Assembly: GCA_963402885.1 (NCBI GenBank)
Contig: OY727103.1
Location: 126,501 to 190,500 of the forward strand
Length of the DNA stretch: 64,000 bases
Direction: 5' to 3'
DNA from: Antedon bifida
Taxonomy: Eukaryota > Echinodermata > Crinoidea > Comatulida > Antedonidae
Made by a program: the position numbers and the translations under genes. Below, in pieces: positions 1,354 to 60,600 of the stretch. How positions within the stretch are numbered: the first letter of the stretch is position 1; every line of letters starts with the position of its first letter. The notes below the pieces were generated by a model. It made no database searches. It was not told the DNA's origin and saw only the letters and a program-made list of their open reading frames with translations.

Positions 1354-1483
1354 CTGGTTTCGTTTGCTATTTTTGTCCACAGGATCTTCGGCAGCAAGCA
1401 TAGCACTACTGACCATAATCAATACAAGCACCACATTTGAAAAATAGTTGTGATTTACGATCAAGTAGCTAGCTTTGCGAAAC
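1354..1483 (-). CDS. Cav1: Cav1 exon 20: IIIS1
   Basis: 130 nt. [20 protein letters not shown] and then [13 protein letters not shown], matching IIIS1 of Cav1. Donor GTAACC, phase 0 out. It is the last channel exon I can find; exon 21 must lie before base 1. Confidence 0.96.
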
Positions 1484-4400
1484 CTGAATGCAAATTAAGA
1501 TATCATTTGAAATTATAGTAACCATAAACAAATAGATACCGGGATTTAAATTATTCATTGTACTTTGTATAGCATGAAATTCCCTTTGAATGAGTCTGTC
1601 ACTTCAATCAACCTGGGGGAATGGAAACAAACATGGATACTGAAATACAACTATTTATTTATGGTTACTATATCTACCTGTTATCCTTGGAGAATATGAA
1701 TAATGAGCTCTCCGTAGGCATCGGGTGTTTTTTTAATTGGATATTTAACTCCGACATTCTGCGAGGGCGTGCTGTGACTGTAGTCGAGTTATCATCATCA
1801 TCATCCTCATCAGGGCCTCCTTCTTCAGTTAAAGCTATAAACATATTAAAATTTAGTTTTTTGTAAGGGTTAAATTAATTTTTTAATTGAAACAAAACTC
1901 TAAACCAAACAAATGCTTAAATGATAAAATCTGCGCAAATCAGTTTCCCATGTAAAATTAACTTAATTATAAAAGACATTGACTTACCAATTGCTTTTCC
2001 ATCTTCATCAACTTTATCAGGAAGGATTTCATCAGGAACCCTTTAAAAAAACATTTATATTATATTATTTATCATATATAAAGCTGAACCTACTATTGCA
2101 CACCATGTGACCCACAATCATCCAATCAAATGAAGCTGCAGCTACTATTGTACACCATGTGACCCACAATCATCCAATCAAATGAAGCTGCAGCTACTAT
2201 TGTACACCATGTGACCCACAATCATCCAACCAAATGAAGCTACTGGTTAATATGGTTGCAGATTGGTTTTAATTTATAGAATCCTTTGAATTAAAAGACA
2301 ACTATTTCACTCATGATTTCCTGGGTTTCAATCAGCTTTTGGATTTGTACTGAATAAATGCTAATAATATAAATGTACAAAAACAATATGAAGTTGATAT
2401 ATGCTATCTTGTTTAAACTGTAAATGGTTTATGTATGATAATGAGCATTAATAATATATGCCATAATTCAATGTCACTATTAGCACTACTTTGAGCTTTT
2501 TAATTTCTATCTAATCGTACCTTCCGTTCTTATGATTCTGTTCATAATTCATCTTAGCTCGTTTTTCTTGAAGATGTTTTGGGCCGCGATTAATTCCCGA
2601 CGGATCCATACCCGGCGCAAGCTGTCTAGATATATCTTCCATCTCGTTAGCTCTACGTTTTGATTTATCACGTTCTTTTTGCTCCTCCTCCTGTTTCTCC
2701 AACGCTGTCAGACTTTCTGCATCAGCCAAGTTGTCAACAGCGATGGCCAAAAATACATTTAACAAAATATCTATTTATCTTCGTTAAAGAACCTTTTATA
2801 TTAATTTGAATAAATGATTTTCATAAATTTTCACTATATAAATCAGGTTTCCTATAGGACTATATGTAAAACAGGTGCTACACCTGATATGTTTTTATAC
2901 TGTATAAATATGTTTTGAATAAAAATTAAAAAATAAACTAAATTGTAAAAAGGATACAGTTACCACAAATAAATAGGACTATGAAGTAAGTACAGGCCAC
3001 AATGCCTATGGAATGTATACCACCATAGGCTTCTATACCATTGTACATTACTTCATTCCAATCCTCACCGGTTAAAATCTACAAAACAAAGATTGAACAG
3101 GAATATTTTGTTTTTCCATTTATCAAACGCAAGAGATTGTCCATCTCTAATTCTCATTATTCGTAATAGTAATAGAGTTAAAAGTTCATAAGTAGTATAT
3201 TTCCAGAAGTCTTAAATTAATGATAATAGTGTAATTTCAAAGAACCTATTAACTTATCTATATCCTAATGTACAATGATTAATGGTCTCTATTCATTAAT
3301 TGGATTGGATTCATATAGTGAACAACACATCAAGGATACCCAGCGTGAGGGCAGTACACACAATGTTCTCTCTTACTCACGTATCCAATATCTTACAACA
3401 AAATGTTTAATCTTAAGAGGGCGTTGTATTTCGTAAAATACTGTACCAGTCATTTTAATTCAAAAGTACAATGCGATTGAAAAAGGATAGTAGTATTGAA
3501 TACACTGTCTTTATGCATATATGTCTTATTATTATTATTATCATACATACTGAGAAAAAAGTCCCGTTACCTGAAATACTGTGAAAAGAGCCTGCCAAAA
3601 GTTGTCAAAATTACTGCGTGGCTTTTCTTTAGTATCATCAAAATTAAATTTCCCTCCGAACACTTGCATACCAAGAAGGGCAAAAATAAGAATAAAGAGA
3701 AAGAGGAGTAGAAGCAAACTTGCAATAGAACGCATTGAATTCAGTAGAGATGCTACAAGGTTACTTAGAGAACTCCAGTATCTGAAAAAAACAAAACATT
3801 TAACAATAATACACAAATCTGGATTGGAGAAAAAAACACATACATAATATATATATATAAATATATAATATAAATTGTTATTATTTATTTATTTATTCTT
3901 TTTTTGACTGGATTGCATTGTCAGTAACGTAGTACTAGGTACAGTAGGTTACATATATATAACTACAGGAAAATAAAAGCATAAATGGGCCTAATTTGAA
4001 AGGTATATACAGATATAGATACAGGTATGTATATAAAAATATATTTGTTTACATATAAGCACATAATTTGATTATTATGAGGTGTGAATCATGTAAGATG
4101 CTCAGTAAGAATTCTTTGAAGTCAAGTTGATCTGAAACATCTAGACTCCTTTAGTTCTTGTTGAGTGCACACAAACACACTCCTTAGGGCTTTAGTATTT
4201 GACCGACAAACATAGAATTAAAAATATTTCATATTGCGTACTTTGTTACTTTGAAAACACGTAAAAGTCGAACACAACGTAAAACACTAATTCCAATTGG
4301 ATCAATCCAGTGTGCATAGATGAGGACCATCTCCAATATACTACTGCATACAACAAAGAAGTCAAAGCGATTGAAGAGAGAAACAAAATAACAATCTATT

Positions 4401-7400
4401 CCAATACTGTACATCTTGATCACCATCTCAATCGTAAATACTATAACAAAGAATATGTTGGAACAATCTGAAAGATAAATAAATAAAAAATATTTAAAAT
4501 GTTTAGAAAAACAGCAAAACTGAACCAATTAAAGAAGGAGGAAATGAAGGAGAGGGAGAAATAAAAATGATTTAAAATTAATATTGATGTTTGCATAGAC
4601 AAATGGCACAACTGAACCAATTAAAGAAGAGGAGAGAGGAAGAAAGAAAAATGTTCAAACATATAAAGCTAAATAACAGAAATATGGAAAGGACCTTGGA
4701 GAATAAAGCTCAATTATTAATGTGTTATTAAGCTATTCACAGTAATATCATAATAATCACCACCATCATATGTTTCGTTTATCCCCTTTAATTGACAATA
4801 CAAGACTTTCTTCCACAGTCATAGCATACTTTCATCAAAAACATAAAAGACGCTATATTACAGCTGCCTTTATGTTGTCGCACTACAAGCTGAAAATCAC
4901 ATTCTTAATTCTTAAAATTGAATAGGATACATATTCATACATGTAAAAACTAAGTAAGGACAACTAAATTATTGCATATAATATTTGGTAGTATCATACC
5001 TTGAAAGGTTGTTAGCCATTTTGGTTGATTGTAATGAAATGAAGCTAGTATACATGTATTAATAAACACCATTACAATGACTATCCAATAAAATGTCTGT
5101 GATTTCACGGCCTGCCTGCAGGCACGTAAACAACGACGATTCCAACGACGAAGAACTCTCCTAGAATAATAATAATTATTGATAAAGAATACTGCCTGCT
5201 ATACATTTTAGTGGTAGAGAAACAACAATGCATTAAAAATATGGTTTATGTATAATACAGATAAACAGATGTTGTGTATTACAAAACAATTCATGTGACA
5301 AATGTACTAAGATGTTCTGAATGTTGGTAGTCATGGATACTTTACTTCATATTCATGTAATTAATGTTGTATAGAACATAATCATTCTGTAATTGTTAGA
5401 TGAGCTATTTATAAATCAACCATAAAACTATACCGTTTCTTTTGAAACCAAGTTACTTGAAGATTTTCACTTTTATCATCGTCTGATTTATCAGAATAGT
5501 CGGACGACTCTGGAATTGGTTTTGCAACTGGAATTAAAAATAAATATATATAAATTTAAACTAATTTGTTTCTCCTTATCAAACTGATTAGTTGAGAAAA
5601 ACTGTTACTTTCACTAAAGGCCATGCCACAAAATTTGTTCCCAAATTTAATTTGGTCTTTGTCCACACACATATTTGATTTTGACACTTTATTTAACTTG
5701 TTAAAACCATTTTAATCTTTTGATTTGTGTGGATCTTCATTTTGATGTGTCTTATTGTACAGTTTTTATATGTTTCTCTTAAGGGAGGTGAGTAAATTTG
5801 AATTTGAATTGAATATTTTACTTTTTAACTCTTTTGTGAGTGGAAACAAAATATTAAATACATTGAATTTGATGTAGACAAAATATAACAGGATACACAA
5901 ATGATGCATTATAACAATAATAGTAAAGTAATTAGTATCAGCCCCAATTTATTTTAGTCTCTGTCCACACACTTATATTTTACTTTTTAACTCATTGTAT
6001 TTTGTGAGTGGAAAACAAAATATTCAACACATTGAATTGGATGTAGACAAAATATAAAAACAACAGGATCCACACAAAAGATGCATTATAACAAAACAGT
6101 CTTTTAGTTTAATATCAGCATTACAACATTTACAGCCCCTATGTTTAATAGTCATCAGTAAAAAATATTTTAAAACCAAGCAGAGTGACCGACAAAAACA
6201 AAATTTTATCTTCTGTAAAATGTAAAATAGTTCATAAACACCATTTCACATTGAAAAATATTTAAGAGTTAATATAAATATTCATTGGTTTGTGTACATA
6301 ATATTAAATAAAAAGCATATGAAATAAGTAAACAGTAATAAAAAGCAAAAATTCTATAAAACAAATATTATACTGCAACATGCAGAATGAGATTGCTTAT
6401 TCATGCATGACAAGGAACTAGACATTTACCATAAACTATTCATACCTTTCGTATTGAGCGTGCCCAGACGTTTCCATAAAACTGCAGCAGGCAAGATCAA
6501 AAAGAAATTGAGTTGTTAGTTAATTGTTAAATAATAAACTAAATGTGAAAAAACCAAAAACCAATTTGCAACTAAAATAGCAAAGAAATAAAATGCACTT
6601 TTATGTCCACTATGTTGAAACTAAAAACCTCTTAAAATGAAAAATATAGATAGTAGGCGCAATTGGGAAATAAAATAAGCGTAGCATAAATTTGTTTTTA
6701 AGGAACCAAAATAAAATGAACCCCTAAAGTTGGCCAGTATATTTATATAATTTAGAGGCATAGAGAGAGAAACTGGCCAGTGTTCTGTTGATAGTTGGAA
6801 ATTGGGAAATAACTTTAGCACAACATATTTTCTTGAATCAAATAAACTGATGTGAGTTGGATCTCTAAAGTATATCATTATATACACCAGTATATCCTTC
6901 AGCTAGTAGATGCCTTTTATCTACATTTATTTCTCTTCATCTCAAATTTATGTAGGTACCAAGCCGATTTAAATGTCAATACACTGATTATTATCCAACA
7001 TTAGGAAACGCTCCCAGAGGGATTGTCTCAGGTGATAAATTATATTTGCTTGATAAGTATATTCAGCAAACCTCCAACAATTACAAGAAATAAGGTATTG
7101 TAATGTACTATACAATACACCCACGAGCAAGATGAATTTCCAATTATAGAATGACAATTATCTTGTATTTTCTATGGCGTGCAAGTAATGTTGGCTTTGA
7201 TTTTTTCCTGAAAACTTGTCGGCCATGAGAAATCTTATTTGTTACAAAGGTTTATGGTACCTAGGAGGAAGGCAACGTATTAACCTCCCATCTAGTGCTA
7301 CTTACGGGATTATGGGATACGTAATCTGGATGATGGGATATGTAATTTGGATATTGGTGTTTAAACAAGTAGTAATGGGGTAATAGTGATGGACATAAAT

Positions 7401-10400
7401 TATGAGTTATTGATGAAGTAATCGATAAAAAGAAAAAATATAGATATTTATAGTAAAAAGAACAGTAATTGATAGCAAGTAAAATGGAAATAAAACCATA
7501 AAGTAAAGATTAAGAAAATTATGGATGGAAGTTAAGATAGTAGGATGAATGAGCCTAGAAATTGGATTTGTTTAGGGGTTAGGAAAAGAATGAAATAAAG
7601 GCTATTAAATAAAATATAAATAATATTTCAAATGTTAAAGCATATATATGTGTAATACATCTTATGTTATTAATGTTACCATGCGAAAGTATAACCATTG
7701 TTATATAATAATATTAATGCATATAATAAAATAAATCTGCTTCGCATAACATTTTAGAGTATAATAGTATCAATTTAAAATGGAGTTTAAAAGCATGTTA
7801 TTATATCCACTGGGGATGGCGCATTCATGGGAGAATAGTTTTACCTCATCTTGCAGTTTTGATGCGCTGTGCGCCCTCAGACATGTATTGGAACGCATGT
7901 ATATTTGAGGTAAAATATCGTTAAAAGGTTATAGTTCTATAAATTTTTCCATACATCATCGTATAACCTATTCAAGTCATTTATTGGTTAGGTGGCCACA
8001 TTCCCTTCTGTACATATATAAGCTATCCAACCATATTAATATTGGATAAGACAAATCACTGAGAAAATTATATTACGATCAAATTTGCAGCGTATACCCC
8101 CAAAAGAGTGATCACATTTGAAAACGCATCAGAATTGCTTCAACCACACTTCTCAACGTTAATAGCATTTCTTTGTCCAAAATTATAGCATTTTTGTTGA
8201 ACTAATGATCTCTGTTTTCTTATGACTGCAAACATTATATACACATCATTATGCACACATTATGTACAGTTTTAAACTACATTATATTTTGAAACTTTAA
8301 TATTTTTTGCATTCAAAATATTAATGATATTTTAATAAATTACATAAATTATAAATTCATTATTATGGATGTAGGCTATTCCACCCTCAATATACAAAAC
8401 TATAAATCATAAAATCACTAGTAGCCCAAAAGAGGAAATATAAACATTATGGTTAAGGAATATAACATCGTGTCATTTATCCCTCAGCACCATGAACATC
8501 ACTTTTTGATGATTTTTTAGCTGTTACAAATGATTAAAAAAAAAATGGATGAATATAATTTGGCTACCATTGGGATTCTCAAAGTATCCAATCACCAACC
8601 AAAAACATATAAAACCAAAAAAAATGGAAATAATGCCCCAAAAGCATACCACTCCAATAGGGTTCTGTAAATAAAACAGATTTTAACGCTGAGATAAAAC
8701 TTGTATCATCTATGTGCACATACAGTAGTAGGCTACAGTTCTAATTGTGTTTGTATGCTTAACTAAATCTCTTTAAATGTGTGCAACTTTAGGGAAAATT
8801 AAACTATATTTGACATTCTGCAATTTATAAAATGCCAAGCGTGTGCAATTGTTTAGTCTACCGTTTCAATCTTCTAAAAGTTTCTGTTTTATATGGCTTA
8901 ATTTTTAGTTTAAAATGATGATTATTGAAAACCTAATTACTTACCATGCTGAGGTGGTAAACTTGGTTTTTGTTCCTCAGTTTCTGGCTCAATATCTTCT
9001 GAAAAGAAAACAGTAATGTTTAAATTTTTCATCTAGTTGAAACTAATGTAGTTAGTTAAATGTAATTTAATGTAGCATAATTATCTAATCTTTAGAATAA
9101 TCATTTTTCTATCAAGATTATTATTTCTAATTTAATTATCAAATCCTGCAAAATTTTCTTCTTAAGCATTGATCCATTTTACATAGCACAAATAAAAAAC
9201 GCAATGAGGCAAGAATAGAGTAGGTGCAATGCCTATTGTTCACCTGGGTCATGTCACCTGCCTTCAGACTCTACTGTTTCCTTTTGTTATTATATTAAAA
9301 TTATTTCAACAACACACATTAGCAATTATTGATCCAAGTATTAAAAGTACTCCATATGATAGATATGACAGTAGCTATGTATTCGAACATTAAAGCACAA
9401 CACACTAAGAAGATGTTCTGCTTCAGAATCTCTAAGAGGGCCTAACAGGTCACAGGTCATTAAACTCTTTTTGATCCGAATATTAAAAGTACTCTATATG
9501 ACTTTATGACAGAAACTATGTGTATTCTAACATTAATAAGCACACCACTAAAGCTCTGTCTACACTATCAAACGTTATGTGACAACAAAATGTGAGGTGC
9601 CCATATATGGACATGATGATGTACTATATTTGGGCAAATCACTACCATATTTAGACACATCATACTTTTTTTGTCAAACTAGTTTGATAGGGTAGACAAA
9701 GCTTTAGAAGCAAATACTATTCTGCTTCAGAATCTCTAAGAGGGCCTAACAGGTCAAAGGTCATTAAACTCTTTAATTACATCAAAGTTAATTACCTGCT
9801 TTCATGATCCAATCCAAGTAGCCCTTAAGATCATCTTCAATTTGCTGTTTCTCTCGTATTTTTTTAAACTCTCCTTTTACCTTTGCTTTTTCTCGCTCTT
9901 TTGAAAATTCACTAAAACAAAAATTAAGAATAAAAGTCGTGAGTTGGGAACATAATAGATATAAGAACATGTATTATATAATACTTGATTGCAAAATAAT
10001 TTATCAGGCCAATGTGAGGCTGGCTCGGATCACCAAATGTAGATTCTCAATATTGTTCATTCGTATATGATGGCAAACGTAAGTAAATACTTAATTTACC
10101 CACTCCCTCCACAATAGCATTTCAATATTCAAGATGAATGCATATACTGCTATAGCTACAATAATATGTAACACAAATTGAAGCTAAGAGGCCAAAACTA
10201 GAAGTGGTATTCATTTGAGAAAGTTGTTTATTAGAGCAACATTATAAAATTGTAAAAGCAATAATTTCTGTTCATACAATCATTATGCAAAATGTTAGTT
10301 TAATGTTAATTTAAAATTAGATTTAACTGCACATAAAAGCTTATTAAACAAAATCACTTTTGACGGCTGCCACAGGTAAACGTGAGTAAACCCAGTTTAA

Positions 10401-16400: not shown

Positions 16401-19400
16401 AATTCAAATCTAATAATACATGGAATAGGTGTAGATCGAATACTGCAACCTATAGTAACATACTTATTAAAGTTTTTGTGTTCAAGTTACAAAAAGGACT
16501 AAAGCCTAATAGTTCTCTATACATACATTGTTGTGGCAGGATAGTTTGACTAAATATGGTCACTGTTAAAAGTACAAAATGATGCATCAATGGATTCACC
16601 ATAGCACAGTGTACAGTAGGCCTACTTGGTGTGTCCCCTGATAATTCTGTCTCCTCTATTTACAACATTTTACAATTTATTACACCTATCAATTTAATCT
16701 AATATCAGCAGAATAAGCAATGTTTAAAATTTAAAATATTACATAACAAAATTGATATTGAATGGTGCATTATTGATGAGTATTAAGTTATCTTTACAAA
16801 GGATCTAGCCAATCATATTCAGACATAGAAATAAAAATACTCCTTAAGCTATTATAAAATATTGTGTAATGTATGCAAATAACTCCCTAGCTTTTGCATT
16901 TTTTCATCACTAGCTGCTTCATATGGTCATACCCAAGTATGAATAATATCTACATTTATGTATCCAACAAAAAAAAGAAATTAATTTATCTGTATGGTTT
17001 CTAGAGATTAATATTTGCGTCAGTAATCATTTAAGAAATAAATATACAACTTCTCTCCCCAACTAAGACATAAAAAATATGAGAAGGGGAAACCTAACAA
17101 TAATAGCCGAAAATGAAATAACAAAATAATAATAATAACAAAAAAAGGTAATATTAATAATTATTACAATTAGTTTTAGCTTGTGTTATGCTGTTGTTTA
17201 CTTTGCTAAATTTAAATTTAGGAAGTTTACAATCTTCCCAATTGCAACAGATTCCAATATGGCTTACAAAAGCTCGGCATGCACCAACGGCGAAAACAAA
17301 AACCAAAGACACCTCAAAAAAGGGGCAAAAAATACAGCTTGTTTTGTTAAGACGGCACGCCATGCCAACAGATTGGTGGCGTCGTTCTGTTGACTTACCC
17401 ACTTAAGACACCAAGAATAAGGTTAAGAACAAAGAATGAGCCCAAGAGAATAAGACTGACGAAATAGATCCATGGCCAACTTGGGCTCACAGAGTCGTTA
17501 ATCTGTGGGATGAAGAATAATACAACAGAAACATTCAATTAATGTTTAATGTAACATAGGAATAATATTGCAAAATGTTACCACCTTTCGTCTGTCAAAA
17601 AGTCATTCTTGAGTACACAACACATACTGCTGTCTTCATTGTAAGTTAAAAATCAATATCTGATTTCAGAATTATCTTTCCCTTATAAAAGTGATTAAAA
17701 ATCTATATTTTATAATTTCATAAATTCAATAACTTTTTTATTTTCTAACAATAGCTCAATCAAAAATTACAAGGTTAATTAGTGTTTCCATGACAACAAA
17801 TCTTGTTTTTTTCTTTAATGTAAAAATGAAATGATAAATTCGTTAATTTTGAAGATTTGAATTTCTTACAAGAATGACTTTAATGACAAATGAGAGATTA
17901 TACATTTTGCAGACGGTGATTTTATCACCACCTAAACACTTACCCACTTAAAACACCAAGAACTAGATTGAGCACGAAGAATGAGCCAACGATAATAAGA
18001 CTCACAAAATACACCCACGGCCAGTTGCTGCCCATGGCATCATTAATCTGCCAATCAAACACAAGCAATGTTAGTCCCACCCACTAAGCCACGCCCCTCT
18101 ATTAGCCATAATATTCATACAGCCACGTCGTACACATTTTACAAACAAAGTTTAAATAAATCATATCAGCTGAACCACTTCAAAGCCATGCAAAAGCCAC
18201 ACCCCAAAAATAATTAAGCCACACCTGTAACAAAGCCACACCTCTAATAAAAGCCACATCTCTATAAAAGCCACACCTTAACAAAATCAACATCATCATC
18301 ATCATCATCATCCGTTACGCTATTCGTCTTGGGTAGACATTGCGTACGCTAATCGTTTCCATGACTCTCTTTCGGTGGTCTGATGACCTGTCAACAAAAG
18401 CCACATCTCTAATAAAAGCCACACCTCTAACAAATGCCACACCTCTAACAAATGCTACACCTCTAATAAAAGCCACATCTCTAGCATAAGCAACAACCTA
18501 ACAAAGCCACACCTCTAGCATAAGCAACACCTCTAACATAGCCACACCTCTAACAAAAGCCACACCTATAACAAAAGCCACATCTCTAATAAAAGCCACA
18601 CCTATAACAAAAGCCACACCTCTAATAAATGCTACACCTATAACAAAAGCCACATCTCTAATAAAAGCCACACCTATAACAAAAGCCACATCTCTAATAA
18701 AAGCCACACCTCTAACAAAAGCCACACCTCTAACAAATGCTACACCTCTAACATAGCCACACCTCCAACAAAAGCCACACCTATAACAAAAGCCACACCT
18801 CTGGCGGATTGTAGAAAAGTGACGAAGTAACTTTTCTACAATCCGCCAGACTGGTGTCAGTTTTTTTTTTTTTTGTGTTTGTATTTTTAATTGTATTATA
18901 TGTCTTCTGGAAAATAAATGAATTGAAAAAGCCACACCTCTATAAAAGCCATACCGCTGACAAAGTTACACCCCTAACAAATGTCACACGTCATCTAACA
19001 GAAGCCACACTTCTAACAAAAGCCACGCCCAAACAAATTGGCACACCTAGCAAATATTGACAGAACAATCAGATTGATACAACATTGCAATTATGAGTAT
19101 TAATAAGCTCATCCCTTCTAATTCTTTGATTTTCAAACAATTCATCCATACCCTCCTCACTACACTATATCCAATATCTCTGTTAAATCTTCACACCCAC
19201 ATGTGGTGTTTGCTGTCAACAGTTTCTTTTCTCTTGTCCCTCTCTACTAATTGACTGACATTCAAATCTCTAATGTCTAACTAACACACCTTTATCCCAT
19301 CAATGCTTAATGTCTTCTGACTGGTTAATCGATCAGCATGAATTCTTGACTTAGATAGCAAATATATATAAGCACTCAATCATGGCTAAGAACAATCACC

Positions 19401-22400
19401 AACAGTGGGAAATATGATCAGAAATACATGCGTATCAAATTTGTAAGAATACCAAACACAAATTAGAGCAAATAACATGTGAACAAGTTAAATGATTTAA
19501 AAAAACAAATGCAAATTTTATAAACAAATTGTAAAGAATCAATTACAATTTTTTAAATAACAAAATTAAGTTCCAACCCTGTTAGATGATAATGAAAAAT
19601 ATGAAATTTTATGTAATGAACCAAATAATAATAATGTCAGACACCATATTTTAGTTTACGACAAAAAACATTGTAATTTTTAAATGTTGATTGCCATTTT
19701 GTATTGAGTCATATTTCGATGTGTTTTAAGAGCAGACAATTTGCGATTTAAAATTTATTTATATCTATTATTTCAACTACAAAATATATACATAAATATA
19801 AAAAACGAATAATTATAGGATACTAAAATAAATGATAGCAAAACATAAGAAGTTGAGGCAATACTTACATAATACATTATCTGTGTCCAGCCCTCCATCG
19901 TAATACATTGGAAGACAGTAAGCATAGCTAGACCTATGTTATCAAAGTTCGTTATGCCTTTATTAGGCCCCTCCCATAACTCTAAGCATTCATAGTTTGT
20001 AGGACAATTATATCCAGTTGTATTTGAGCACGGGCGAGGCACTTGCTCTATTTCTCTAATACCATCTAAAAAAAAAAAGAAACAGTTTTCTGGTAATAAG
20101 TTTATTTATAACCCGTAAAGCTCTGTCTACATTATCAAACTAGTTTGACAAAAAATGTGTGATGTGCCCAAATATGGTAGTGATATGACATCATCATGTC
20201 CATATATGGGAACATCACATTTTTTGTCACATAAAGTTTGAGAGTGTAGACAGAGCTTAATACTTATATAATATGACCACTGTTTCAAATATCCAAAACA
20301 ACAACCATTTTTCTCATAACTTTAAAGCGTGGAACCAAAGGTCTTCTTACCTGAATTTGTGAAATAGCACGCACTATGAAGCTTTCCCATAAATAATTCC
20401 AGACCAATAATTGCATAAATGATGATAACAAAAATTACTAATAGCGCAATGTGTAGTAGAGGCACCATTGCACGTAGAATTGCATTTAGGACGACTTGTA
20501 AACCTACAACAACAAAAATACACACAGATACATTTTGTGTTACTCTATACCCATTTAGTTACAAGGAGTGTTACATACAAAACTGATGCAAAGATCAAAT
20601 TATACAATAGAGAAAAAATGAATTTACTCAGAAACATACAGATTAGCCCATTAGTGCCATTTTCATGGAAACATTTGATCAAAAGTGTACTTTTTAATAA
20701 ACAAGCAATAGACGTCAGTTGGATTTTGGATAATGATATGCAGAAAAAGATTGTACAATTATATGAATCATGAATTCATATCGTTGTTTTAAGCCGACTT
20801 GCCACTGTCAGCATAGCAGCAAAGAATCAAACACATCAACAGTGATGTAAAGCTACATAATTTAGTATTGTATGCAAGCCCCAAGGACCAAAAACCCCTT
20901 GATTTAAATTGATTGATGTTCTGGTTGCAAAAGTATGTTTACAATGTTTTACATTCAATCTGTTTGAATATTAAATTACATTTATACATATATGAATGCA
21001 ATATTTATTCTAAACTTTCTTTATAAAACGAAATGCTACCTAACATTTTGGCATTATGCTGTATAACCTTGACTCATGGTCAAAGGCGGTCAATGAAATG
21101 ACCGTTATTTTGCTAAAACACAATAACTGGCTAAATGGCCATCTGTTGTGTCTTTTTAACAATATTTGAAATTTGTGACATTTGCTGCCAAAAATTGGGG
21201 TCAATTATTCACATGGTAATTAATCAGTTACTTGCTCGCAGCAAACAGACCAGACTTAAGCAGCAGAAACAGACCCGACTTAAGACATCATTGTATAAAT
21301 AATTTATATATGTCAAACGATAGCGAATTAGTAACATAATATTAATATCAAATAAATGTCAACAATATTAATACTATAACAACTTGATGGCCTTTATACA
21401 TCAATATGACTTTATTAAACAATTTGTACGACAGGCCATCTTATTAATTAGTTATAAAAATGAGAAATTTATTTTCGATTGGGGACACTAATTATCTAGC
21501 ACTGGCTGGCTATATAGACTGTTAGTAGGAATGATATATAGTCTTCATACTGTTCCAAATATATATAGTATATTTTCATGTCAAACCTCCTAGTTTAGTT
21601 TTAACACCACAACCAAACAATCTTAAAATAGTAAGTAATATTTATTCTTTTCAAGAACAGTACAATTTACAGCATAATTAATATATGAAAATAAATACAA
21701 AGAATAATACAAACATGCACAAAAAATGTAATTTGTAAGGGTTTATTTTCAAACTATGAAAGGGTTCTTATCAAAATGGTATTTTAAGTCTATACTTACT
21801 TGGAACCCCTGAAACTAGTCGTAATGGTCTGACAACACGAAAGGCTCTCAACGCTTTAACATCTAGTGTTGAACTTGATGATGTATTTAAGTCTGTCAGA
21901 ATCGTACTAATAATCCTGTTGAAAAATAAGAACATTAACATTTCAAGCTGGCTTGTATGAAAAATATGAATTTCAAAATTTACATAGCAAAAACAAAATA
22001 AACAATCTAATTTTTACTTTTAATATAATATTCTAATTCCAGCAATGGTACATGTTGTTTTAAAAAACAGATTTATTTTAAAAAAATGATGGCGTTACAT
22101 AAAAAAGTTACATCACTTCGAAAGGCCTTTTTTATAGACATACATTCTATTCTACTGAAAATTAAGGTAAAGATTTACAATACATCGTGATAATCAGGCC
22201 AATTTATCACTTTGTCGTCTTGATAACAAAAGAGCTTTGTAACAAGTGTGATTAAGACTGTATTATAGATTTCTATTTATAGAGTGTTTTACTAAAACTA
22301 CAAATTCTGTAAATGTAAATTGTATGCCAACACTATCAACTTCCTTGGTATTAATTTGTTAGCAAACATACTTCCTAAAACAATACGTAATATTGTCATA

Positions 22401-25400: not shown

Positions 25401-28400
25401 AAATTAAGACTGCCTAAAATAATGAGTATTAATGTATTTTTGTCAGCAACAGCAAGTACTTAACATACCAATTAGGGCATGAGAACTAAAGCACATGCTT
25501 TACAAGTTACAGTCTGTTACTTTGGTATAATATAAGAATTGAACCAGGAACATACAGTATAAACATCAAACCATAGTATCAATATTTTAGAATATGTAAA
25601 AAAAAAAAATCAATGGATAATTAATTTTATATAAGTAAATCTTTCATTTGTTGTCTTATTTTTCATTTTAAATTAATGTTTCATTAAATTTATCGGGACT
25701 TGAAAATTATCCTATTAATTAAAAACATTTTGCATAATATAAAACACTAGACAGTAGTAAATAAAATTCAGAGAAAACAAACAAAATGTTTAACCCACAC
25801 AAGAAGGATGTCATTAAACGTATCTTTCAACTTTGACCTTTCATGCAGAGATTCTCGCTCATTGTCTAATTTGCTTAAGGCCACTGGCCGCCGATCCACC
25901 ATATTGAAACATCTGATTAATCTCAAGTGCAACCATGGCAACCAAGTTTCCCATCAGCCATTAGTATGATATTCTTCTAAGATGATTGTTATCTCACTGT
26001 ATGTATCAGTAATACAATCAGTGCTATGGGTTTTTAATTAATTAAACAACATAATGTTGTAGTTTTATATATTTTTTTAATAAATTTCATGCTCCACTTT
26101 TTTCATAAGATGTTTTTAGTTTAATTTTTATGCATATTGCCAGAGACTATATCAAAATATTGATTCGAAATGCAATGCAATGTTGGGTGACAATGTTGCT
26201 AGAGATAATGATTATGATAATGATGATTATAACGCTAAATCATTTGACGAAGAACATAAATATATATACAACAATACAGCAGTCTTTACAAGATTAAAAA
26301 GGACTAATAAAACGGTTAATAACTCATAGATTTTTGTTGTCAATTACAATAAAACAAAACATTAAGTTTTATAATAGTCATTTTTAATGAAAATCAATAA
26401 ATCTGTCAAAGTACACTTACCCAATAAGAACAATAATAAAATCCAGTAAATTCCAAGCATTTCGTAGGTAAGCTCCATTGTGCATAAGAAAACCACATGC
26501 GATTATTTTAAGAACTGCTTCGGCTGTAAAAATCGCAAGAAAAGCATACTCGATCTTTTCCTAAAAACAAAAAGAATTCAGTATTAAATAAAGTATCATT
26601 TAGTAAACTATATAATTCATGCAATTTTACAAGCTGTATAAATTCCAAACAAATATAGTTGGAGTGGAGTTGGTCATGTGTTGAAATATATTGAAGCAAC
26701 ATAAAGAAAATGAATAAATAAATGTTCCATTAAAATAAAATGAGATTAAATGATGATATTATAAAGCTATTATCTATGTTGTTTGTAGTTCGCATCCAAA
26801 TAATAAAGAAACAAATAATTCATAAAAGATGCAATGAGAGAAAAAAAAGAATGAAAGAAAAGAGAAGGAGTGGCAGAATGAAAGAAGCAATAAGGCCGCC
26901 AAGAATCGAACAGATCTAAAAATTCTCTCTTCTTTAATTCCTTTGCACCATCTCAATCAGTCACAGTAATTTCCTCGCATAATTTACAATCAACAAAACA
27001 AAGAAGCAAAATCTGCTACAGATTTGTTTCTGTGATGAATTTTGTGGCAAACCACTTTAGGCTACTTAATACCATTCTGGCTTAAAGCAATCAAATGAGA
27101 AAGCTAAGCAAATATTATTTCTTTCTGTTATTTGGTTTTGAAGAAATTGACTAAATATTCTAATTGACAAAACTCAATTCAGTGCTAAGGAAGTAATTAA
27201 AAATATGTATTCATGGGCTACAGATACGGTCGCGTTTCAAACCGAATAGGTCGTGTTTCAAATTAGTCGTGTTTAGAATCGGTCACGTATATGGCATGCC
27301 AAATGTGCCTTTTAGCTTACCCATCCTAAAAACCTAACCACACTAAAAACAATCCGAACCATCCTAACAACCTGTATATCTGTATCCAATATTGGTGATA
27401 ACGTACGTTGGTCAGGGATTATTAATAGCAAAATGTGCTTTTGTGAAATTATTTTGAAATTGCGACATGGACAGAATTGGATTTGAACCAAGCCTCATCA
27501 ATTACACAAACACCATGCAAGTAATCAATCAACCATTACCACATATTGTATCTTTCCTTCTTCATTATTGCAATGTATATTTATCCAATTCATTTAAAAA
27601 TCAATATTATTGAGGCACAATTGTTTTGTAATATTGTATCATACAGTATTCATTTACCATATTACTAGGCAAGTCACTACTGTGTCTAAAATATTAACCA
27701 TGCCTTGTTGAGTGATTTCGAGCTCATGCCTCATGGGCGTCGCTTTCGATGCCCGGCATGTAGAACTAACCGGAAAAGGAATTCGTTTTTGCCAGTGGCT
27801 ATTCGACTCTTAAATTCTTGAACCTTGACTCTTTTTTTTTTTCTATTTTGTACTGTGTATTGTGATATTTTGTATATTTTGTAAGATCATTTTAATCCAG
27901 ACCTTTTTATTTGAATTGCCCCGTGTGGGATGATTAAAGAATTTTGAATTGAATTGAATTGAATTGAATAGTAGCAACATAATACTAATATTTCCACTAT
28001 GATATTGTATATGTTTTTTTATGCACAACTACTTTGTTATTACAATACTACTATTCCATCAGTATACGATTATTTTACATCATGTTTGCACCTACGGACT
28101 AGCACCACGATATGGACTAGCACCGCGATATGGACTAGCACCGCGATATGGACTAGTACCCTATGGACCATTGAGGCTAAAAAAGGAAAGGGCCATCAAG
28201 GGGTCATATCAGGGATTTTTCCCCAAAGCAAGCCAGTTGCTTTATTAGAGAATTACAGAAAGGAGAATTATTACACTTAGGGCTATATAGTTTTTATATA
28301 ATTGACAAACCGCGCTGTCTTCTGTGAAATAGAACAAGTGCAAATGTACCCTTACACAGAAAGAGTGTATCACCTGGGGGACAAGTGCAAATGTACCCTT

Positions 28401-46400: not shown

Positions 46401-49400
46401 ATGTAAACCAACATTATATAAAATTAATCATCAAGATCGATGCTGAATTGTAAAGCTTTTTTGAATGTTGGTATTGCAAATTCAGTACTGAACTCAAACG
46501 AAATTGAATACAGTTTTTCCTGTAAAAACGTTATATCAACCTACAGGAGTGTTGTATTATTATTATTTGTATAATGTAAAGAGGGACTACAGCGACAGGT
46601 CCATCGGGCCTTTTGTAGTCTCTTGACTATATATATTATATGTCAACCATTGTTAATGTTATGATATAATATTTTTGGTCAATAAACTGAAGGATAAAGT
46701 GCTTCTTGGAATTCTAGAGTGTATATCTTATGAACCTACACGATTGTTTTTCTTTCTTGTTTATTAATCATTGATCACATACAACAGTTGTTTTTTTTTT
46801 ACATTTCTACTGTAATTGGTCAAAAATATTTCAACATAAATCAACCTTCATTAAACTCAGCCAATGTATACAAGAGGAGATTCTTAGAATACGGATGACG
46901 TACATACGTCTTAAAATGTTGCAACTTACCAAATTAGTATTTATGTCGTTAGAATCTTGCTCTGGAAATGGAGTATAGACAGCGAGGGCGACACAATTCG
47001 CAAATATCGTAAACAAGATGATTACATCAAATGGTCTGGTTGTAAATTAGTTAAGAAAATTGTTTATAAAATACACGTAAAAAGTTAGTTATGGAGGAAA
47101 GAAATAAAAAATATTAAAATTCAAAAAAGTAAAAGTATGTGTGTATCATCTATTAATAGGATGCATATAAATTTAAACAAAAAATTATTATAATATTTGC
47201 AAATATAAATATAAAAATGCAAAATAAATTATTAAAATAACATCAATATTATCAAACTATTTATAGAGCTGTACAGTATATATAAGTAAAATTGATCAAA
47301 GTACAGTATATTACACTTTCGTAATTCAATGTGCGATTTATCGACAATATCAAACAATACTTGTATGTAAATGAGGTATTAATCAGTTGATGTTAATTAT
47401 GTAAATTTCCAATATTATTGATTAATTAAACAACATTAAAAAATCAATGAAATCATTGAACCATGACTCATGTATGTTGTCATAGATAGCTGAACAGGTT
47501 AAATATTAAATACTTTAAAATAAATATGTATAATTATTCTATCAGATATTTTTGTAAAGCACCCAATATAAAACAAACAAATTGCAAAATTGTCATGGCT
47601 TTTCTGTGCAATAAAAGTAATATTTTGATAAAAACTAATGTGCAAATAATGTTGGATATCACTTTACAACATTTTAAGTTTAATTGACATTTAGACAAAA
47701 TTATTACAAAAGGATACTTCCATTCTACCAGACGTATGCAAAACCGCCGAACAGGATTGTCCAACGTTAGACAAAAAAGTGCCCTCTGTGGTCGCAGTGT
47801 ACTTGAATGGTGCGTTTTTTTCTTAGCATAGGAGTTGTTTGTTCTGTTGCGTGTCATAGTTTGAGCCGTGGTTGTGATAGCTAAGGTAGTATGCCACGCT
47901 GGGCTTAAAGGGTTTTCTGGTAAGTTAGACGAAGGTTGTGAACTTAAAGTGGTGTACCCCGACACATAACGGCCCCGACTTGAGACAGCTGAACCACTGT
48001 GGTTAACTCCTGAAATGAATCCAATAATTTATGATAAAAAAATTATACTAAAAAGTAAACATTTTGCCAGTCAATCCAAGCGTCATCCAAGTATATGAGA
48101 GGTATAAGTAAAAGTTGTCAAGTACAATCTAATATTAGAATAACTAGGAACATTTATAAATAGAAAATAAAATTCTCTTTCTGATATTTGAACCGATTTC
48201 TTTCAAAAAACCATAAACCATAAATAACAAAAATGTGAATACTTCTATAAATCCACATGAACAGTTTAATTATTATAATTTCTATATAAAATTTGTTTTG
48301 TTTGTGTTAACATTGAATGACTATGCAATAGCATAAACATCCTCACTCCCAACAACTTGCTTACAATTCAAGACACCAGCAATCAATGGGTATTATAGAT
48401 GCCGACGCCAAAATCAATTGATTTACAAAATTCATATTGATTCAATACAGAATACACAAGTACGTTATTGTATGACCTACATGTTTACAAATGTATGCAC
48501 TTTTGGTCTACTGCAGTAATCTACTAGTTTACTGCAGTAGTATTTTGTTTGATAGCAGTTACTACTGTATATCAATTCTACTATTGACAGGCTCAGTATT
48601 TTGTCTTTACATTGCATTTCAGTTATTGAATAAAGGTTGATTTTCTCAGACATTTAACTTTTATTTTATTATTATTTCAACTACATCCAACAGCGAAAAA
48701 TCGCCAATTATAGGATGCATTAAAAATATATCACTTCCTTCATTATATAGATACCAAACAAAAACATAAATGGCTTTTTCATTTTAGAATTCATGGTAGG
48801 CCTACAACCTGTCAGTTCTCTTTTGCACCTAATGCAATACTGTATAACTGTAAAGTTAAGATAAATAGGAGAATGTATTTTTTATGTTTGAGGTTAGACT
48901 GTACTCTTGTAAATATATCAACTTATTTTAATTATTATAAAATGTACAGTATTGAATAATTATCATAAGTAATTTTTAATCTTTTATCTATTTTTTTATC
49001 AGAGAATTGTGTTGTTTTTTGTGTTGTTTTAGTGCTTATCTACGTGTTGGTGCAATTATTTTGGAGTAGTTTTGACAAGGTATGTGCTAGTATTTTGGTT
49101 TTTTTTTTTGTTAACACAGTTTGTCAATACTCCTTGGACCTTGCAACAATCTCACCTTCATGACCTTTACATGAACGAAAGAAAAATCAATTTGCAAATA
49201 ACACCGTAACACATGTAACTGTATGAATATTAAACAATTATTTAATTTATTCAGAGATAAGTCCCTTGATACAGATTACTTAGTACTTACTAACACTCTA
49301 TAAAAGTAATTTAACTTAATTAATTTATCAAACTACAAATTGGTGACTTACTGTAAATGAAATTAAATATTTTATATTAGATTCTGAAAATTAACCTGTG

Positions 49401-50320: not shown

Positions 50321-51453
50321 TTTCGGAAATGTGACCAGACATCCTTACAAATCATTTGAAATGTTCTATTTGTTTGCTCTGACATTATAACAAAGATGTT
50401 CTTACAATTGAGGGCGCCAAACATACAATTTACGAGATCGAAAGGAGGAGATAAGCAAAAAAAAAAAAAAAAAAATTTGGTGTGCTCCCTTGCCTCTAGC
50501 ACGTTAGGCCCTCTCACAGCCTTGGGTCACGACATCAGATGCTTTGATGTTATTGCTTCATGATGACGTGGTGGAAAGGGGGACGTTTTTAATCTGTGAA
50601 CCCCAAACACAGAAGCTCGCATAGCTTTAACTCTTTTCCACCGACCGGCATGGGGTTTGAACCCACGATAATCGTGTTCCACGACGCTCTACCAACTGAG
50701 CTATCCGGCCCTCTGGTTAAAAGACATGATAATACGAGTTTTGTCCTCTCAAAATTACGCTCATGAATATGCATATAGGACGTAACGATTAGAATGACGT
50801 AATAATGAAGCACGTAAAAAAATAGACTATACTGTTAGTTAGGTGTTTTTGTTGACGTGTACATTGTGGCGTAACGTGTTATGCTCTGGTTTAGGTACTT
50901 CCAACTCTAGCAGCTGGGGTTCAAGTCTCTTCAGAACTTTTTTTTTTTTTCAATATCGGTTTTTCTTTTTTCAATATCCTATCGTTTTTCTTTTATTTTG
51001 AGAGATATTTAGAGGGTTAAGTTAATTTAGTGTGATGAACTGTGGAGGCTTTGACTGCTACTCGCTTGGTTACAATTGTATTCGTACGTTATTCAACACA
51101 TACTTTTTTAGTATTAACATGAGTTTTAATATAATTGTTTTTTAATTGGAAGTGCCAGCGTCAGTTCAGTTTATTTTGTACGTGATTATGTTATGGACCT
51201 GATGGTGCTTTTTCCGGGGTTTTTTCCCTCACATATGCTTGACCAAAAACATCAGGACAAAGCATACTTTGTAAATATTTTGTAATTAATTTTTGTTTTT
51301 TTCTCATAATTTGTATTTACTGTATTCTTTTTTACTGTGTGCGGCATCTGATATAAAAGAGTAATACTGTATACGTACAGCAGTAATACAATCCGAAGTT
51401 CGGTTAAAAAGATAAAATAGAGGGCGGCAGCAGCATTATAGTTTATTTTCATC
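49786..51453. promoter_or_regulatory. Divergent intergenic region between Cav1 and DCP1
   Basis: Separates the two start codons by about 1.7 kb and must hold the DCP1 promoter and, if exon 1 is right, the Cav1 promoter and leader. Seen within it: an eight-codon upstream open frame in the Cav1 leader (49816-49842, minus), (TA)n tracts at 50111-50130 and 50286-50317, a SINE-like sequence (50456-50710) and a T-run at about 50940. No TATA box or initiator can be assigned with confidence. Confidence 0.55.
50456..50710 (-). mobile_element. tRNA-derived SINE candidate
   Basis: The head (50643-50710, minus) is tRNA-like: acceptor GGCCGGA pairing with GCCGGTC, A box TAGCTCAGTTGG, B box GGTTCAAACCC. 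It spans 68 nt and the anticodon arm does not fold correctly, so it is not a working tRNA. About 170 bp of unrelated body follows and stops at a run of 19 T (minus strand), which could terminate RNA polymerase III. Confidence 0.6.
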
Positions 51454-57600: not shown

Positions 57601-60600
57601 GTGGGATGCCTTAACCACTAGACCACAGAGGTTTTTGATATTATAATAGGTAAAATTACAACCTAATACATTTCATCGCGCTGTTCATGGGTTTAAAATT
57701 ATGTGCTTGCCATATTGTGTAGGTTACTTTCTTTTAATAAATGTTTTCTTTTTTTCAGGTCAGCAATACCATATCATGGCTTTATGATTATGAATCGGCT
57801 GAATACAGAGAATTGGACCGAACCAATCAACAAAGAATTAGAATTCCAACTGCATGAACCATTCTTACTTTACCGGACTTCAAAAGGTACTAATGTTTAA
57901 AATGGCAGATAAACATGTTTTAGATCACCAAGAAGAATTGAGTAATCGAGGATGAGAGTAATTATGTAGGGTGGGGAGTGGATTTTACAAAAGACATGTT
58001 CAATGTATACTTTAAGAAATAGCTGCATATTCATATTAATATGTCACAAAAACTGTTTTGTAATACAATATGCCATTGGATTGTTGTCTATGGTAATTAT
58101 GCGTATCATATTAAAATGTCTTTAATATTAATATGGACAAGTTATCCTTAATTTTATTCTTCCTAACAATTTAATCTTAATCTAACCAATTTTATTGTAC
58201 ATTAGCCTAATTTAATGAGTTGTCACTGGTAAATTAAAAAAATATTAAATATAAATACAGTTACTATGTTCATGATATTTATTACTAATTGATTAACTAC
58301 CCTATATAAGAATGGTAGATTCCAAATTGTGTATGTTACTGTAGTTGGACACGGCAGAGCAATATGGTAGAATAGGGCAGTACACAAGTATAATATGAAT
58401 CTGCTATATACAGTTTAAAATTTATTTATTTTTTCATAGCTATTTTTGGTTTATGGTTCTATAAGCCTGAAGACTGCCATAATGTATGCGAACTGATGCA
58501 AAGGTAATGGCTTACACCAACATATATATTGTTCCAAAGATATATTAATTTATTTATTTATTTTCCACACATTAAACAAAAAAGAACAGATATTTATACT
58601 TTAGAAAAGGAAAAAAAAGATACAAAAAGGACAATGTGTGAAAGGAGATCAAAATAAGTAACCACCTAAGTAGTTGATACAGATATCAAAAGGTTTTTTT
58701 AAGGAGGCTAAATATATGTTTATATAGTCAGAAATATTTGTTTATCACAATCAATAGTGTAATTTAATAGTAATTGATAGTAGAGTTGGAGACATGTATA
58801 GAAGAACCAATATAATAACTGATTTATTACAATTTTCAGCTTGACTGAAAAGGCCAAATTAGAAAAAAAGGTTCGACAACGAAGCATGTCTGAAAGTGAC
58901 GGTGGCTATTCCCCTCGTGGTCCTGTTGATATACTGCAAATGTTGAATAGAGCACAGAATGAATATCTTGAGGTAATATATACACAATTACTGGTGGCGA
59001 ATATAGGATTTTGAAATAGGATGGGCCAGAGTTTGCCTATAAGAGTTGTTTTAACTGCCTCAATTTATGCATGACGGGTAAAGAACTGGTAAAATAAGCT
59101 GGTTATGATAACACACAAGAGCTGGTAATAGTTAAAAAGTTTACAGAGAAAAATACTGTTAGATAGATTGATTACAGTTCAACTGCCTCAATTTATGCAT
59201 GACGGGTAAAGGACGTGTAAAGAACTGGTAAATTAAGCTAATCAAAGATGGTTATAATAACACACAGCTGATAGTAGGCAAAACAATCAACTGAATCCCT
59301 GATTTGTACACAGATTTACTTGTGGAAAGTCTTCATGCAATCACTGTTCTATTTAAAGAATATATTAAAATATATTAATATTTGTTTTACTTTATCATAG
59401 TCGCAAGGATCTGAACAAATTCCAACACATACAGGTGAACAAAGCATTGAAATGATTGGCCCGCTACGACCAGTTCCCATAAAACCAGAAAGCCAAGTAG
59501 ATATGAGTAAAATAAGACCAATGTTAAATCGATCGATATCAATGCAACATGGTCATCAAGCAGCACACTACAGCCAAGGCATTCACCCTGTGTTACAAAA
59601 ACTTCTCTCACATCCAGGCGAGGGCGCTGTACCTTTGCCTGCGAACAATGTACACACTGTTGAAAGCATTGAAAAACTTCACGTTGACGAAGATAAAACT
59701 ATGAAACCAATTTCAGTTGGAAGTATTGAGGGTGTTATGAATGTTGGAGAAAACATGCCAGCCCAATCACAAGACAAAATAACTGCTCCATTACAAGACT
59801 TTTTGACTAAACTAAATATAACATCCGTTTTGGACTCTGAAACAAACCTCGGTAAAAACGTAGCTACGACAGAAATTGATGATACGATTGGACAAGATAT
59901 GTCTAGGAGTAAAGACTTAGATATTAACAAAGCATTGTTAGCAAATTTGAAAGGAAGTAGTCAGCAGGCTAAGACAGGACCGGTACCAAGTCTAGGCCAG
60001 ATGGCTGCTATGAGTGTGGGGGCTGGCAATGCACTCTTATTAGGCCTACAACAACAAGCAAACATGGACACAACAACAGTAGGTTCTGTGTTGTGATTAG
60101 CCTTATTAAAGATTAAGTTAAATCAAGACGGTATTCCTAAATAAGCATGCACTTAAAACACAAACTACTCTAGCATGACCTATAAACAATGTTTATCAAC
60201 AATATAGTCTCTATACGAACCCGGATGGAATAGTCGGCCTCAAAATATGATGATACAAACAGAGAGTGTCACTTGATGATGAACTTTAAAACATTATTTG
60301 TTTAAAAATTTGTCATCGTAATTTAGAGGCATATCATCTTTAATGTTTGCTAGTCACACAGTGCAATTGAACTTCAGCATAGATATGCTGATTTTGAAAT
60401 TAGAAGATCATTTAATGTTGTACTGGTCGACATAATTAAGTTATATTAGTAGCTAATGGGGGAGGAGGAAATGCAGTTTGAGAAAATTAATTTACAAATT
60501 GTGTCACCATTAAGCAAATACAGATGCATCTAGGCTAGACGCTATTGTCTGTTGTATGTAAATACACAGGCCTGTAGTTTAATAACAAATTTATGAGAAA

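Follow-up and report, generated by a model that had tools for sequence, protein, structure and literature searches.

The human L-type calcium channel gene CACNA1C carries two exons, 8 and 8A, that are each 104 nt long and mutually exclusive (PMC11043036), and the last two bases of either exon encode Gly406 together with the first base of exon 9 (PMC8165229). Exon 8 is placed upstream of 8A in Splawski's naming (PMC8165229), and the names 8 and 8a are swapped in other reports (PMC3596553). As described for the mouse primers in a paper on Timothy-syndrome exon 8A, exon 8 encodes QDAMGYE and 8A encodes VNDAVGR (PMC6964969). Read together, two of these accounts (PMC8165229, PMC6964969) suggest that in mammals the AMG type lies upstream and the AVGRDWPWIYF type downstream. 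The switch between the two affects the dihydropyridine sensitivity of mammalian Cav1.2 (PMC3596553) and determines where mutations of Timothy syndrome take effect (PMC8165229), and the electrophysiology of the mammalian exon 8 and 8A forms has been described as relatively similar (PMC11043036). The vertebrate Cav1 genes have been said to descend from one with three exon pairs (IS6, IIIS2 and IVS3), and the origin of the vertebrate IS6 pair has been traced to that ancestor of the paralogues; the IS6 event is not dated in the sections consulted (PMC9741552). The same source describes ten duplications in the calcium channels of human and fly, each at a different exon (PMC9741552). Five human exon clusters with homologous fly clusters have also been reported, convergence or common descent being left undecided there, and certain exons were said to seem prone to duplication (PMC5740500). 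For the IS6 exon pair or its kind in a non-vertebrate Cav1, no report appeared among the titles and abstracts listed in searches of open-access literature, in agreement with the first-pass annotation of the DNA analysed here, which knew of none in this lineage.

The window (the whole stretch of DNA that was analysed, 64,000 nt) corresponds to C16:126501-190500 of a 315.6-Mb genome in 27 contigs. Channel coding stretches lie on its minus strand and run from IS1 (46927..47046), 5' of which none was identified, through IS2-IS3 (26420..26560), IS4 (21798..21917), IS5 (20358..20504) and the exon 6/7 region (19869..20066, 5' limit approximate), which encodes the domain I pore loop with its CITMEGW filter. 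Beyond the IS6 exons follow exon 9 (9796..9911), with a beta-subunit-binding motif that was recognised by eye, a stretch of the I-II linker (5433..5519), IIS1 (5001..5156), IIS2-IIS4 (4241..4468), IIS5 with its pore loop (3571..3780), the domain II filter (LTGEDW) with IIS6 (2956..3078), the end of IIS6 with the II-III linker (2529..2759), a second stretch of that linker (1677..1832) and IIIS1 (1354..1488). The gene then runs on past the window into C16 below 126501, its remainder, at least to the IQ domain, lying in C16:108563-126038. A 585-aa query, made by concatenating the window exons with copy B of IS6 and with linkers partly omitted, scored 946-1016 bits against the 11 distinct Cav1 sequences among the PDB matches listed, versus 783-802 bits against three Cav2, 439-465 against four Cav3, 254-370 against Nav and 200-202 against NALCN among those same matches. 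The EEEE filter is complete (TMEGW, LTGEDW, STFEGW, ATGEAW), Pfam Ion_trans and Ca_chan_IQ were found in two of the three channel pieces (the third, of 43 aa, gave no match), and the C-terminal IQ domain matched PF08763 with an E value of 3.1e-15. Judged from its translation, the gene is that of a Cav1 (L-type) alpha1 subunit. The first-pass annotation had spoken of an invertebrate-type Cav1 gene, and a non-vertebrate Cav1 with its top scores against Cav1 sequences is indeed what was found. A search of the same genome, confined to the best-scoring candidates, points to one Cav1 gene. When 139 aa of joined exons were searched against genome_contigs and viral_contigs, 60 and 11 pattern matches were returned, respectively, none of which was confirmed.

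Other features were seen in the window and in the same assembly. On the plus strand, a 231-residue open frame at 59401-60093 had no Pfam match at 0.001, and by eye we take it to resemble the eIF4E transporter (EIF4ENIF1). A tRNA match (Rfam RF00005, 43 bits) lies on the minus strand at 50642-50710 and is perhaps a tRNA-derived repeat. Contig C27 is the mitochondrial genome (15,844 bp; genes named by eye from translations), with ATP6, COX3, ND3, ND4, ND5, CYTB, COX1 and COX2 on one strand and ND6, ND1, ND2 and the 16S RNA on the opposite one. COX1 is next to COX2, and the stretch from ND4 to ND5 holds an ND4L-like frame alongside tRNA-Arg. We take the general gene plan to be that of an echinoderm. 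Judging by the title of their 2006 paper, Scouras and Smith reportedly described a unique nad4L rearrangement within crinoids, and the displaced ND4L seen here is presumably that very rearrangement. The mitogenome of a crinoid has been given as 15,887 bp (PMC8820819). In the nuclear assembly at least ten contigs measure 19-35 Mb, with some 37 Mb left over, chiefly in C3-C7; a total of eleven chromosomes, which would suit a crinoid, is a guess.

The IS6 exon of the Cav1 gene is present in two copies on the minus strand, an upstream copy B (17944..18047) and a downstream copy A (17399..17502), separated by an intron of 441 nt (17503..17943). Both are 104 nt long and encode 35 residues, the last G being completed by exon 9. 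On inspection of the sequence, each copy is preceded by a CAG acceptor and followed by a GTAAGT donor, starts in phase 0 and ends in GG, which forms one codon with the T that opens exon 9. The coordinates and splice sites thus agree with the first-pass description of two complete 104-nt exons, 441 nt apart, with consensus donors and identical phases. The copies are identical at 78/104 nucleotides and 26/35 residues, and an assembly duplicate was ruled out by this 75% nucleotide identity. The best PDB match of copy B was Cav1.2, and those of copy A were Cav1.1 and Cav1.2. Pyrimidines make up 12 of the 20 positions of the tract before the AG of copy B versus 15 of 20 for copy A. The intron directly 5' of copy B holds a minisatellite with units of 17-18 bp (AACAAAAGCCACACCTCT) at 18216-19026.

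The reading frame constrains how these two exons can be used. A splice of B to A reads ...VLGVLSGLTTL* and meets an in-frame stop within A, as the first-pass annotation had anticipated in claiming that the frame forbids both copies together. The exon 6/7 region ends ...QIMYY in phase 0 with a GTAAGT donor from 19868; with exon 7 ending in TAT and exon 9 opening with TGAATTTTC, a direct 7-9 junction, read by eye, gives an immediate TGA. By contrast with these stops, 7-B-9 and 7-A-9 both stay open across their junctions. Since inclusion of both copies and of neither leads to a stop, the frame demands exactly one copy per transcript. The two exons are tandem and homologous, with equal phases and intact splice sites, and the frame is lost if a transcript takes both or omits both. 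Taken together, these features argue strongly that A and B are mutually exclusive exons, each supplying an alternative IS6 pore helix for the Cav1 of an echinoderm, most probably a crinoid. Nine residues would distinguish the predicted isoforms, of which five lie in the turret (pore loop to S6) and four along IS6, with the GSFFVLNL core common to both and the glycines at Timothy-syndrome positions 402 and 406 (numbering of the Cav1.2 PDB chain) kept in A and B.

A message would then hold one copy, as two or none would introduce a stop codon. Exclusion through crowding in a short intron was considered as the means by which this might be achieved, and is unlikely here, as an intron of 441 nt is too long for likely steric exclusion of splicing. 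With crowding unlikely at this length, the likely mechanism is a filter of reading frame and message decay, by which wrong products would be removed, together with regulated acceptor choice. If mammalian Cav1.2 is a guide, tissue or stage would govern which copy is chosen, and the choice may slightly tune drug-site and gating properties. Because B has the poorer polypyrimidine tract, the downstream copy A may be the default.

Divergence between the copies bears on both their age and their use. Estimates by NG86 and LWL85 gave dN of 0.156-0.163 and dS of 1.24-1.55, with dN/dS of 0.10-0.13, and YN00 returned no dN/dS value for the pair. BLASTN similarity between A and B extends no further than the exon and the adjoining GTAAGT, and the flanks are not alignable. 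A recent duplication is ruled out by these flanks and by a dS of 1.2-1.5. By these measures, the pair is old, under purifying selection and near synonymous saturation, which lends support to the old duplication that formed part of the first-pass interpretation. At conserved degenerate sites, 12 of 23 codons are identical versus 8.3 expected (P 0.07) from the codon use of the channel gene itself (826 codons). Synonymous identity is somewhat above equilibrium, and on this non-significant excess the pair could be younger than the vertebrates. The same data bear on whether one copy might be a decaying, unused duplicate. Partial, seemingly non-functional exon copies occur elsewhere in the Cav1 gene, and B has both the poorer polypyrimidine tract and an adjoining minisatellite, but neither copy has lost its open frame, splice sites or phases, the pore-core residues are conserved and dN/dS is low, and we consider an unused copy to be quite improbable.

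For comparison with the vertebrate exon types, nine columns that separate the two types were taken from a Cav1.2 chain and a Cav1.3 chain from PDB and counted by hand. At these columns, copy B agrees with the AMG/PWVYF type at three, with the WPWIYF type at two and with neither at four, while copy A agrees with the WPWIYF type at four, with the AMG/PWVYF type at one and with neither at four. Only at columns 5 (M/V) and 12 (V/I) do A and B differ from each other as the vertebrate types do. The contrast that the first-pass annotation had drawn between AMG/PWVYF and WPWIYF therefore holds in part: B has AMG and WVYF, and A has WIYF, but WPW is present in both copies and the contrast is weaker than stated. 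Its labels, B like human 8a and A like human 8, follow the opposite of Splawski's naming. Along the gene, B (AMG, WVYF) precedes A (V, WIYF), which is the order suggested for mammals, although the copies can be matched to the types only weakly. These likenesses fit a common origin, in which the IS6 exon was duplicated before the echinoderm-chordate split and both copies were kept here and in vertebrate CACNA1C and CACNA1D, the IIIS2 and IVS3 pairs being added later in the chordate line. In favour of such an origin are the shared exon and the shared upstream/downstream order (the mammalian order being that of PMC8165229 and PMC6964969), as well as the two columns that separate the copies in the vertebrate manner; against it, the pairs of Drosophila Ca-alpha1D are at other exons (PMC9741552). 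We regard it as a serious candidate, if one that falls somewhat short of an even chance.

Searches with other exons place the pair in a wider context. When 29 exon peptides were searched over 124 kb, an intact second copy was found for one only (IS6), and partial second copies were found for IIIS5 and IIIP. The partial second exon for the domain III pore loop lies past the window at C16:122371-122291, 148 bp downstream of the intact exon; it matches over 27 residues at 96% identity, is without the exon's 5' part and looks recent. In the intron before the IIIS5 exon, at C16:123300-123060, two degenerate fragments derived from the first part of that exon and its flank were seen by eye in tandem, one of them matched over 13 residues. 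Also past the window, the IVS3-IVS4 intron holds a long tandem array (C16:116528-111324) with a 1735-codon open frame that is mostly repeat. In the 124 kb searched, second IIIS2 and IVS3 exons were not found, the single exons being at C16:126038-125979 and C16:120115-120032. Since the pairs at these two sites are absent, this gene does not simply carry the vertebrate arrangement back in time. A whole-genome search with copy B returned, among the best-scoring candidates, three matches, namely B, A and C8:2426321-2426419. The last is a Cav2-like IS6 exon, 104 nt long by eye and with a diverged turret (CANAHGSAFVWLYF), for which no second copy was matched among those candidates. Because this exon also measures 104 nt, the borders of the IS6 exon probably predate the separation of Cav1 from Cav2, and they are uninformative on whether the duplication is shared.

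The single IIIS2 and IVS3 exons count against a common origin and in favour of a separate event, in which this exon was duplicated independently on the way to echinoderms or crinoids and the vertebrate likeness amounts to two conservative substitutions. The latter is a third reading, left out by the first-pass dichotomy in which the duplication either predates the vertebrate paralogues or had the same contrast selected twice. The repeated origin of tandem pairs in the channel family, seen in the ten human and fly events (PMC9741552), and the apparent predisposition of certain exons to duplicate (PMC5740500) are consistent with it, as are the further local partial duplications within this Cav1 gene. 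On the other side, the near saturation at synonymous sites and the loss of flanking similarity indicate that any such event was not recent, and the order of the copies agrees with that of mammals. We place the chance of an independent duplication at about even.

Trees were built on 35 residues from copies A and B, the Cav2 of this genome, and Cav1.2, Cav1.3, Cav1.1 and Cav2.3. With database-derived sequences only, common origin was better than independent origin by 1.84 (LG), 0.69 (LG+G), 1.36 (JTT) and 2.22 (WAG) lnL, a weak lean that speaks for the former and against the latter. The AU test rejected none of the three trees at the 0.05 level, and adding residues taken from the mouse primers for the alternative Cav1.2 exon left the preference essentially unchanged. 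Simulated independent origin reached the observed difference in 3/300 replicates under LG, where the simulating tree is nearly star-like and the branch joining the copies almost of zero length, and in 20/200 under LG+G. Addition of a provisional sequence for the Cav1.3 companion exon reversed the preference, independent origin becoming better by 1.4-2.4 lnL, and with provisional Cav1.3 and Cav1.2 exons both added it was better by 2.1-3.5 lnL; in the latter case, 32/200 simulations under independent origin reached the observed value. The preference for or against a one-to-one grouping of the copies with the vertebrate types thus changes sign with the sequences used. The statement that the tree rejects independent origin, which the 3/300 had suggested, was dropped after the LG+G simulation and the trees with provisional exons. 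That one provisional sequence flips the preference favours independent duplication and weakens the case for common origin, and independent origin is not rejected by the simulation in which 32/200 replicates reached the observed value.

An old IS6 pair in an echinoderm without the other two pairs would mean either that a non-vertebrate outgroup is available to date the switch or that the same exon was duplicated twice. It is a tentative possibility, held at a little under even, that the IS6 pair of vertebrate Cav1 channels, in which mutations cause Timothy syndrome, arose in deuterostomes or earlier and persists in crinoids, and that the vertebrate pairs were gained stepwise, IS6 first, then IIIS2 and IVS3. 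The pair in this L-type channel sits at the very place of the pair in the vertebrate heart and brain channel, which makes the origin of the latter testable outside vertebrates, and it is most useful as an outgroup for asking when the vertebrate switch arose.

Among known systems, the tandem exon pair of NALCN belongs to the same channel superfamily and reflects the same kind of event, in a different channel. The tandem pairs of Drosophila Ca-alpha1D, cacophony and Ca-alpha1T are likewise events of the same kind, but at other exons (PMC9741552). The vertebrate Cav1 pairs 21/22 (IIIS2) and 31/32 (IVS3) occur within the same gene family, but the corresponding exons are single here; an IIIS2 exon of about 60 nt is present and unpaired. 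The CACNA1D IS6 exons 8a/8b are the same exon as the pair found here and mutually exclusive (PMC7781618). The sequence of the CACNA1D companion exon used in the trees was the provisional one, and its inclusion turned the test against common origin. Compared with CACNA1C 8/8a, the pair found here lies in a single echinoderm Cav1 gene, has WPW in both copies and only two separating columns, and is predicted from sequence. It nevertheless shares with the CACNA1C pair the same exon, the length of 104 nt, the same phases and a Gly406-equivalent codon across the exon 9 junction, with the two vertebrate types arranged along the gene as B and A are here.
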